Shown piece after piece: positions 54,479 through 63,362 of a stretch of DNA of 64,000 bases. How positions within the stretch are numbered: position 1 is the stretch's first letter; each line of letters opens with the position of its first letter. The stretch comes from Tepidanaerobacter syntrophicus. GTDB lineage: Bacteria; Bacillota; Thermosediminibacteria; Thermosediminibacterales; Tepidanaerobacteraceae. Below the pieces are notes generated by a model. It made no database searches. It had not been told where the DNA came from and was given only the letters and a program-made list of their open reading frames with translations. Both the position numbers and the translations under genes were made by a program. The stretch spans positions 310,001 through 374,000 of the forward strand of contig NZ_DF977003.1 in assembly GCF_001485475.2 (NCBI RefSeq), in the 5' to 3' direction.

Positions 54479-54507
54479 TTGACACCTCAGTCCAATTTAA
54501 TTATAAT
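54479..54507 (+). promoter_or_regulatory. Consensus promoter of the aspS T-box transcript
   Basis: TTGACA (54479-54484), 17-bp spacer, TATAAT (54502-54507): perfect SigmaA match. Transcription would start near 54514, just ahead of the T-box leader. Confidence 0.85.
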
Positions 54508-54513
54508 TGTCTA

Positions 54514-54778
54514 AAAGGCATACGCCAAAAGCGAAGATGAGGAAGGAGCATGCAAAGTCTTCAGGGAGAAAAAGCCGAGACTGAAAGCTTTTTCGGCATG
54601 CGCATGTAATACCTAACACCTCGGAGCTTAAATCCTGAAGTTTCTATTTTGATTAGGGATTTACGCTGAGCAAGCGTTAGACTTGTAAGTGGGATTTTTT
54701 CCAAACAGGGTGGCACCGCGGGAGAGTTCTCGTCCCTGATAATATAATTTGTTATCAAGGATGGGGACTTTTTTATTT
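54514..54778 (+). ncRNA. T-box leader of aspS, specifier AAC (asparagine)
   Basis: The antiterminator T-box AGGGTGGCACCGCG is at 54707-54720; its TGGC can pair with the GCCA acceptor end of tRNA-Asn or tRNA-Asp. The terminator pairs GTCCC (54732-54736) with GGGGAC (54763-54768), followed by six T. The 3' side of Stem I reads CCT-AAC-A-CCTCGGAGC, with AAC at 54615-54617. Aligning it with the serine T-box in this window (TCC-G-CCCCGGAGT) places AAC in the specifier position. Uncharged tRNA-Asn would then turn on aspS. The leader ends about 55 nt before aspS. Confidence 0.9.
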
Positions 54779-54832
54779 GTTAATCAGTCTGCTTATATTC
54801 GAATAAACTTACAGAAAAAGGAGTTGTTTCTT

Positions 54833-56605
54833 GTGGAAAAAAAGATTAAAAGGAACTTTTATTGCGGCGATTTGAGAGAGGAACATGAAGGCAATGATGT
54901 ATGCCTTTCGGGATGGGTTCAGACTCGTAGAGATTTAGGAGGGCTTATTTTTGTTGATTTAAGGGACCGAAGCGGTATTGTACAAGTAGTGTTTAATCCC
55001 GAATATGAAGAAGCTTTTAAAAAAGCTGATGAAATACGAAGTGAGTATGTTATCTCTGTGAGAGGAAAGGTATCTAAACGGCCTGAAGAAAATGTAAATC
55101 CAAAAATTCCCACAGGCTATATAGAAATAATCGGCCAGGAAATAGAAATTCTCAGTAAAGCAAAAACCCCGCCATTCTTAATTGAAGATGATGCAAAAGT
55201 TGATGAGATTGTAAGACTTAAATATCGTTATCTTGATTTAAGAAGACCGAAGATGAAGGAAAATATAATCTTTAGGAGTAAATTAAATAAGGCTATAAGG
55301 GATTTTTTAGATGAGAACGGTTTTATTGAGGTAGAGACGCCGATTCTTACTAAGAGCACTCCAGAAGGTGCACGTGACTATTTGGTTCCCAGCAGATTAA
55401 ATCCCGGTAAATTCTATGCTCTTCCTCAATCTCCCCAATTGTTCAAACAAATATTGATGATAGGTGGAATGGAGCGTTACTATCAAATCGCTCGTTGCTT
55501 TAGGGATGAAGATTTAAGAGCTGACAGGCAGCCGGAATTCACTCAGCTTGATATGGAAATGTCTTTTGTGGATGTTGATGATGTAATTTCATTAAATGAA
55601 AAACTTATCAAATATGTTGTCGAAAGGGTTACTGATATAAAAGTTAATATTCCTTTCCCTAGAATTACTTATAATGAGGCAATGGAGAAATACGGTTCAG
55701 ATAAACCCGATACACGTTTTGGCATGGAAATGGTCGATGTATCTGATGCTGTTATAAATAGTGATTTTAAGGTGTTTAAAGATGCAGTTGAAAATGGCGG
55801 AAAAGTTAAGGGAATAAACATTGTAAATGGCAGCAATCTCTTTAGCCGCAGACAAATTGATGAATTGGTAGAAAAAGCAAAAGAATTCGGTGCAAAAGGG
55901 CTAGCATGGATAAACATCGCGGAAGAAGGAATAAAATCTCCAATTGCCAAGTTTTTCAGCAGCGAACAAATAGAAAATCTTATTAGCAAATTCAATGCTA
56001 AAACAGGAGACTTAATAGTATTTGTAGCTGATAAAGACCCCGAACTTGTTATGACATCACTTGGAAGCCTTAGACTGTATCTGGCCAAAACTTTAAATCT
56101 TATAGAAAAGGACAAGTTTAACTTTTTGTGGGTAACTGAATTTCCTTTATTGGAATACAGCGAGGAAGAAAAAAGATATGTGGCAAAACATCACCCCTTC
56201 ACATCTCCCATGGATGAGGATATTTATCTGCTTGAAAGCGAGCCCTGGAAAGCGCGGGCCAAGGCTTATGATATCGTCTTAAACGGAACGGAGTTAGGAG
56301 GAGGCAGCATAAGAATACACAACACTGATCTTCAGGAAAAAATGTTTGAAGTTCTGGGTTTCTCAAAGGAAAGGGCTTGGAACAACTTTGGATTTTTGCT
56401 CAAAGCCTTTGAATACGGAACACCTCCCCACGGAGGCATAGCCTATGGATTAGACAGAATGGCGATGCTACTTTTAGGGCTTGATAGCATCAGAGACTGC
56501 ATAGCATTTCCTAAGACACAGAATGCTTCATGCCCCTTAACAGACGCTCCGAGCGAAGTTGACCAGAAGCAGTTAAAGGAATTACACATACAACTGAAAA
56601 TTTAA
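54833..56605 (+). CDS. aspS: Aspartyl-tRNA synthetase (bacterial type)
   Basis: Class IIb synthetase, 590 aa, the bacterial length. The N-terminal OB anticodon-binding domain is at about 12-105 (CLSGWVQTRRDLGGLIFVDLRDR). Catalytic motif 2 is FRDEDLRADRQPEFTQLDMEMSF, the GAD insertion is at about 290-410, and motif 3 is GIAYGLDRMAMLLLG. GTG 54833 is chosen behind AAGGAG (54817-54822); an earlier open frame runs back into the T-box terminator. The Asn specifier upstream suggests it may also charge tRNA-Asn (non-discriminating). The leucine in RRDLGG is the residue found in the discriminating E. coli enzyme, so the question stays open. Confidence 0.94.
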   Translation: MEKKIKRNFYCGDLREEHEGNDVCLSGWVQTRRDLGGLIFVDLRDRSGIVQVVFNPEYEEAFKKADEIRSEYVISVRGKVSKRPEENVNPKIPTGYIEIIGQEIEILSKAKTPPFLIEDDAKVDEIVRLKYRYLDLRRPKMKENIIFRSKLNKAIRDFLDENGFIEVETPILTKSTPEGARDYLVPSRLNPGKFYALPQSPQLFKQILMIGGMERYYQIARCFRDEDLRADRQPEFTQLDMEMSFVDVDDVISLNEKLIKYVVERVTDIKVNIPFPRITYNEAMEKYGSDKPDTRFGMEMVDVSDAVINSDFKVFKDAVENGGKVKGINIVNGSNLFSRRQIDELVEKAKEFGAKGLAWINIAEEGIKSPIAKFFSSEQIENLISKFNAKTGDLIVFVADKDPELVMTSLGSLRLYLAKTLNLIEKDKFNFLWVTEFPLLEYSEEEKRYVAKHHPFTSPMDEDIYLLESEPWKARAKAYDIVLNGTELGGGSIRIHNTDLQEKMFEVLGFSKERAWNNFGFLLKAFEYGTPPHGGIAYGLDRMAMLLLGLDSIRDCIAFPKTQNASCPLTDAPSEVDQKQLKELHIQLKI

Positions 56606-56851: not shown

Positions 56852-57043
56852 ACAAAACAATCCCTGCTGTGTGCGTGTAAGCTGACATAGTAAAGAGCCA
56901 ACACTCTGAGAAAGGGAGTCCGGACTCTGAATGTTGAGTATATGCCCTCGAGAGAGGGAAATACAAGAGACGTTCAGGAGGACACCCACCTGGTAAGCCG
57001 GGTCTCTATTTACGGTCAGTAAACACGGCATGGTGGGGTTTAT
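56852..57043 (+). ncRNA. ssrS: 6S RNA
   Basis: About 190 nt with no open frame. The 5' segment CCCTGCTGTGT (56862-56872) pairs with the 3' segment ACACGGCATGGTGGGG (57023-57038), and CTGAC with GTCAG just inside. This gives the closing stem of a long, bubble-containing rod as in 6S RNA, which mimics an open promoter and sequesters SigmaA holoenzyme. Internal hairpins such as CCAACACTCTGAG with CTCTGAATGTTG are visible. In Bacillus subtilis one 6S gene also lies between aspS and the tcdA homolog yrvM, which supports the call. A promoter ends 8 nt upstream. Boundaries are approximate. Confidence 0.82.
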
Positions 57044-63137: not shown

Positions 63138-63362
63138 AAATTTAGTTAGTAAAAACTATGAAGGGGAAAATTAAAGATATTTTCTATAGAGAGTCAGTGG
63201 ATGGTGCAAACTGACAGAAGATCTTTATTTCCGCCCCGGAGTTGTTGGCGATGAGCCAAACCGGTTTTAACCGTTAGATTTATAGAGGGTTGCATATTTT
63301 GGGAAACTGAAATAGGGTGGCAACGCGGTAATTTCCGCCCCTTGTACTGGGCGGTTTTTTTA
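63138..63362 (+). ncRNA. T-box leader, specifier TCC (serine), upstream of serA
   Basis: T-box AGGGTGGCAACGCGG is at 63314-63328, and its TGGC fits the GCCA end of tRNA-Ser. The terminator pairs CCGCCC (63335-63340) with GGGCGG (63349-63354), followed by a run of T. The Stem I terminal loop GTCAGTGGATGGTGCAAACTGAC begins near 63193. The specifier region reads ATT-TCC-G-CCCCGGAGTT, with TCC at 63230-63232. Low serine charging would raise serA expression, which matches the pathway. Confidence 0.93.

Follow-up and report, generated by a model that had tools for sequence, protein, structure and literature searches.

The locus described here lies in a window of 64,000 nucleotides, the whole stretch of Tepidanaerobacter syntrophicus DNA that was analysed, and comprises a promoter, a leader and aspS, the latter encoding an AspRS (Table 1). 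The likely start of aspS is a GTG at 54833, with AAGGAG at 54818-54823, and the mechanical ORF start (TTG 54749) falls inside the terminator of the leader. Just downstream of aspS, at 56858-57043, there is a 6S RNA (RF00013), which is kept in five relatives (L025, L029, L031, L032, L037).

Table 1. Features of the aspS locus (window positions) and the gatCAB operons of the same genome (G000; positions on contigs C8 and C9)
Feature	Position	Strand	Basis
Sigma-70-type promoter, TTGACA - 17 nt - TATAAT	54479..54507	+	12/12 consensus match
T-box leader	54525..54740	+	RF00230 match over whole model, 92.3 bits, E 5.3e-21
GAGG, 5' strand of helix below specifier loop	54539..54542	+	pairs with 54619-54622
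Specifier codon AAC (Asn)	54615..54617	+	Rfam alignment; covariance model R1; invariant in 9/9 family leaders
Conserved purine after specifier	54618	+	A; purine in 12/12 training T-boxes of this genome
CCUC, 3' strand of helix below specifier loop	54619..54622	+	R1 and family alignment; pairs with GAGG 54539-54542
Antiterminator	54707..54737	+	helices 6 and 7 of family alignment
Terminator hairpin with U run	54722..54772	+	MFE fold; missed by simple terminator scan
aspS, bacterial-type AspRS, RRDLGG	54833..56605	+	TIGR00459 820.4 bits, NF001750 890 bits
gatCAB operon (L021)	C9:84601-87817		
gatCAB operon (L022)	C8:206723-209930		

An earlier note on this DNA had placed a T-box before aspS, at 54514-54778, and this was borne out by RF00230, by a family alignment, by the fold of the full leader and by the promoter. 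The RF00230 score narrowly misses the membership cut-off, falling short of the gathering score (93) by 0.7 bit, and for this reason a whole-window Rfam scan lists only the T-box at 63149 and the 6S RNA. The leaders of the family orthologues scored from 91.8 to 109.7 bits, with at least 93 in 7 of the 8 (G010 fell below, at 91.8). The leader is a T-box despite the missed threshold, a call that rests on its structural parts and on the orthologues. In the alignment of nine family leaders 98.8% of cells agreed with the pairing of the T-box structure, and both partners had changed in 7 pairs; as a control, sliding the partners by 1-3 columns on the same alignment gave a pairing of at most 61%. The helix flanking the specifier carries a compensatory change, G-C to A-U on both sides, between the window and its eight relatives, and the segment AGGG-UGGCACC-GCG, which holds the UGGN bulge between the antiterminator helices, was paired in 100% of cells across the nine leaders. 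Folding of the full leader gave z = -3.63 against shuffles. Stem I folded alone was no better than shuffles (z = 0.11) and its MFE structure differs from the canonical Stem I, a result that is uninformative. A simple terminator scan of the leader found none, although the MFE fold has the hairpin.

The S-turn bases (AGUA/GAA) beside the specifier are not recognisable in the window leader, and GAA is present in three relatives with hisS-aspS spacing. Within family f1, the T-box stands at that spacing in three loci (L175, L176, L177) and directly before aspS in six (L025, L027, L029, L031, L032, L037), and a recognisable S-turn GAA is missing from the aspS-only leaders.

The specifier was placed by covariance models, as the earlier note had proposed, and both RF00230 and R1 gave the AAC which that note had read, and not GAC. 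R1 is a covariance model of Stem I whose training set, free of aspS leaders, consisted of 12 T-boxes from elsewhere in the genome. The sequence AAC-A-CCUC follows the expected order of specifier triplet, purine and 3' strand of the lower helix; the leader has neither GAC nor GAU between the upper helix and CCUC. AACA is invariant in all nine family leaders, the remaining loop diverging, and this too agrees with the AAC reading. Applied back to the genome, R1 read 13 of its 14 other T-boxes as cognate to their genes, which were named by eye from the downstream sequences; 12 of these T-boxes are the training set of R1. Outside the training set, the leuS T-box was read correctly and glyS, with only a partial match, failed. 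A home-made helix search for the specifier had recovered only 5 of the 14 control T-boxes and was replaced by R1. The leader also contains CAC, which overlaps the specifier in AACAC and lies two bases off the specifier columns.

The tRNA-Asn of this organism has the anticodon GUU, the pair U1-A72 and G73. The pair U1-A72 has been described as what makes Asp-tRNA-Asn a substrate for amidation (PMC9976931). The discriminator base is G73 in both tRNA-Asn and tRNA-Asp, and C73 in tRNA-His. The bulge UGGC, at 54711-54714, matches a tRNA 3' end of GCCA (G73), and in this way fits tRNA-Asn or tRNA-Asp and not tRNA-His. The match is taken as support only, because TBDB leaves the discriminator out of its matching for His (PMC7778990).

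The genome has 2.43 Mb and is estimated to be 99.95% complete. It has no asnS match above the cut-off, the weaker matches being LysRS (named by eye) and the window AspRS itself, and none of the 20 genomes of the class has one (0/20). A genome search showed asnA to be absent, and a single PF00733 match (21 bits), the only candidate for asnB, was MnmA, leaving no asnB. Two complete gatC-gatA-gatB operons are present, the identities of GatC and of the second GatA having been assigned by eye, together with a single AspRS gene. The C8 copy of gatCAB is preceded by a glutamine synthetase-like gene (by eye). The genome check suggested by the earlier note therefore returned no asnS, asnA or asnB and two gatCAB operons, and the gene content is in all points that of a tRNA-dependent asparagine pathway without AsnRS, which supports asparagine synthesis on tRNA in this organism. 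With these three genes absent, and with gatCAB and one AspRS present, tRNA-Asn has to be charged by the AspRS, provided that the genome is complete.

The window AspRS is of the bacterial type and not of the archaeal non-discriminating type: the archaeal model TIGR00458 gave 248.9 bits, below its cut-off of 368.4, against 820.4 bits with TIGR00459. Leucine in RRDLGG marks the discriminating AspRS of E. coli, and the same leucine in the window enzyme had been a worry from the outset. The residue turned out not to be diagnostic. Among 19 aspS loci of the class, whose genomes have no asnS, 15 carry RRDLGG and 4 RRDHGG. In a wider sample, among the best-scoring aspS matches listed, leucine was found in 21 and histidine in 75 of the 96 asnS-less genomes parsed, compared with 16 and 26 of the 42 genomes with asnS, while 15 of 153 genomes were unparsed at this residue. 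The leucine was accordingly rejected as a marker of specificity. The window AspRS would be non-discriminating, as the genome content requires. In one relative (G005), aspS (C1:1780184-1781931) is split into two frames, because of a sequencing error or because the gene is broken.

A search of the phylum covered 299 genomes, of which 292 had an aspS match at threshold and 139 an asnS match. The survey of leaders comprised 153 genomes, with 140 upstream regions taken from the best ~150 of the aspS matches in the 292 genomes, to which the survey therefore leans, and 13 class loci added to them; some contigs end upstream of aspS (e.g. L191, 280 bases). Among the best-scoring aspS matches listed, a T-box core was found by pattern in 60 of the 153, a pattern miss being no proof of absence. 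Most of the 60 cores lie ~1.34-1.73 kb upstream of aspS, the distance expected for hisS-aspS, and L040 and L042 are the only loci in which an HMM confirmed hisS behind the T-box. R1 matched 51 of these 60 leaders and, among the best-scoring aspS matches listed, read AAC in 27, GAC in 23, ACA in one and CAC in none. The ACA leader (L171) is probably GACAG shifted by one; the nine unmatched leaders were L025, L074, L078, L085, L109, L110, L136, L144 and L173, and a spurious second row of L122 was dropped. Both AAC and GAC occur within each of three families (f16, f64, f72). In a separate set of named genomes, 23 of 80 loci had a core match and 22 were run through R1 (L217 was dropped as spurious), which matched 19 of them: 8 AAC, 9 GAC and 2 other (L211, L222), with L202, L206 and L263 unmatched. 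The AAC leaders of this set include those of Halalkalibacterium halodurans, Priestia aryabhattai and Sporosarcina koreensis. Across the aspS-linked T-boxes (L055-L194, L199-L253), AAC and GAC are about evenly represented regardless of asnS, with no His codon in the matched specifier columns.

The earlier note had linked AAC to an AspRS that also makes Asp-tRNA-Asn for GatCAB, with asparagine formed on the tRNA, and this explanation stands in part. It fits every check in the window genome but is not a rule: AAC was expected to go with a lack of asnS, and the survey gave 16 AAC and 13 GAC leaders in genomes without asnS and 11 and 10 (plus the ACA) in those with it, and thus no association (Fisher p = 1), among genomes that are non-independent, 8 of the 27 AAC leaders coming from the window's family. 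The absence of AsnRS is a fitting context here and does not predict the codon, which is a switch between two states, AAC and GAC, that does not track AsnRS.

For comparison, a search for T-box cores with UGGG gave 30 loci, of which 12 that were T-box-like by eye were run through R1, giving CAC in eight and TGC (Cys) in four. Of the eight CAC loci, three lie before hisZ-like genes and two before amino-acid ABC binding proteins. In L307, L317 and L318 the Cys codon TGC goes together with a UGGG bulge, and UGGG is thus not His-specific.

These comparisons bear on a reading in which the leader is a His T-box inherited from a hisS-aspS operon, with CAC in AACAC as its codon, or a box with two codons, one for Asn and one for His. 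In three family genomes ~1.37 kb separate the T-box from the aspS downstream of it, and an HMM confirmed hisS in two of them; CAY is found at the overlapping place in 42 of the 51 leaders, and the hisS-aspS box of MRSA has been called a histidine T-box in one report (PMC7927825). However, CAC is out of register with the specifier columns, CAY is lacking at the overlapping place in the other 9 of the 51 leaders, and hisS is not downstream of the leader in the window. R1 read Asn or Asp in 50 of the 51 and CAC in none, yet it read CAC in the eight UGGG-core loci. A UGGG bulge was seen in 0 of the 60 leaders, a count to be read with the eight CAC loci having themselves been found via UGGG and with TBDB ignoring the discriminator for His (PMC7778990). 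This reading is considered unlikely.

A T-box for Asp, with its specifier elsewhere in the loop or with tRNA-Asp reading AAC by mismatch, could draw on the GAC found at the same position in 23 of the 51 R1-matched aspS-linked leaders and on the G73 that tRNA-Asp also has; it is nonetheless very unlikely, given that two models (RF00230 and R1) place AAC in the specifier columns, that the 3' side of the specifier loop has no GAY and that AACA does not vary in the family. The least probable case, and an extremely unlikely one, is that AAC is neutral drift in a decaying leader which no longer binds tRNA. The unrecognisable S-turn bases, an Rfam score just below the cut-off and the weak fold of Stem I would agree with decay, but across nine leaders of 75% mean column identity the antiterminator pairs, AACA and the bulge UGG have either stayed the same or changed with compensation, and a consensus promoter is present.

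The interpretation preferred here is that a transcription-attenuating T-box on the sole AspRS gene reads AAC and is opened by uncharged tRNA-Asn, thereby reporting the charging of tRNA-Asn by AspRS, and this is very probably correct. The T-box architecture, the AAC register, the genome content and the tRNA features were established by computation, and the sequence suggests that the leader would bind tRNA-Asn. Uncharged tRNA-Asn would bind the AAC specifier, leading to antitermination and to transcription of aspS, and the switch would report whether AspRS keeps tRNA-Asn charged. Asp-tRNA-Asn would count as charged, so that the AspRS step would be sensed and not the amidation step. In Bdellovibrio, a non-discriminating AspRS was described to prefer tRNA-Asp about 3-fold (PMC4206432). 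Because non-discriminating AspRS tends to prefer tRNA-Asp, tRNA-Asn would run uncharged first and would be the more sensitive sensor. The mechanism is known; the ligand is unexpected but sensible.

The leader shares with the transcriptional T-boxes of RF00230 a Stem I with specifier, AG-bulge and apical loop, a UGGN bulge and an antiterminator/terminator, and differs from them in its sub-threshold score and in its S-turn bases. For the boxes of hisS-aspS operons, which have GACAC, tRNA-Asp was proposed as the main ligand (Gutierrez-Preciado et al. 2009, cited in PMC5313534). These boxes are of the same operon lineage and register as the window leader, and in three family genomes (G005, G006, G009) hisS still lies between box and aspS (HMM-confirmed in G006 and G009); in contrast, the first base of the window specifier is A and not G, giving Asn and not Asp, and in the window genome and five relatives the box is no longer followed by hisS. 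Saad and others described a transamidation operon of Clostridium acetobutylicum whose T-box is recognised by tRNA-Asn as well as by tRNA-Glu (Saad et al. 2013, via PMC4052509). In both cases an Asn codon governs genes of the tRNA-dependent asparagine pathway, whereas the window T-box governs an AspRS gene that is the only one of its genome and of the bacterial type; gatCAB does not follow it, the genome lacks AsnRS, and no Glu codon overlaps the Asn codon. A response of a T-box to tRNA-Asn is possible in vivo, as the lysK box of Bacillus cereus was partly induced by uncharged tRNA-Asn (PMC2916919), although that box has a canonical response to tRNA-Lys and precedes a lysyl-tRNA synthetase gene. 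In the open literature, outside of which Saad 2012, Saad 2013 and Vitreschak 2008 lay and may contain one, no statement of an AAC specifier before a bacterial-type aspS was found.

Both codons, and their independence from asnS, are most simply accounted for if many Firmicutes have an AspRS that charges tRNA-Asp as well as tRNA-Asn; either tRNA could then serve as the sensor, and a switch between GAC and AAC would be tolerated. The AspRS enzymes of B. subtilis, B. halodurans and S. aureus are reportedly non-discriminating, and the AAC read by R1 in the leader of H. halodurans agrees with this. GAC does not imply discrimination, as it is also found in genomes that lack asnS and so need a non-discriminating AspRS. 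Tentatively, it may be that in about half of the Firmicutes aspS and hisS-aspS units which carry a T-box the tRNA sensed is tRNA-Asn, rather than tRNA-Asp or tRNA-His, even where AsnRS is present, that the G/A position flips since AspRS charges both tRNAs, and that AAC would mark a non-discriminating AspRS.

An AAC codon on aspS ties gene regulation to a question of the genetic code, namely how the supply of Asp-tRNA-Asn is balanced without AsnRS. Should AAC on aspS prove to be a marker of non-discriminating AspRS, the leader would allow specificity to be predicted where the leucine or histidine of RRDxGG fails. Wels and others stated that the T-boxes of aminoacyl-tRNA synthetases always carry the cognate codon of their ligase (Wels et al. 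2008; PMC2494555), and AAC leaders on aspS would be a systematic exception to this in name and not in function. A re-reading of the hisS-aspS T-boxes now labelled as histidine is also suggested.
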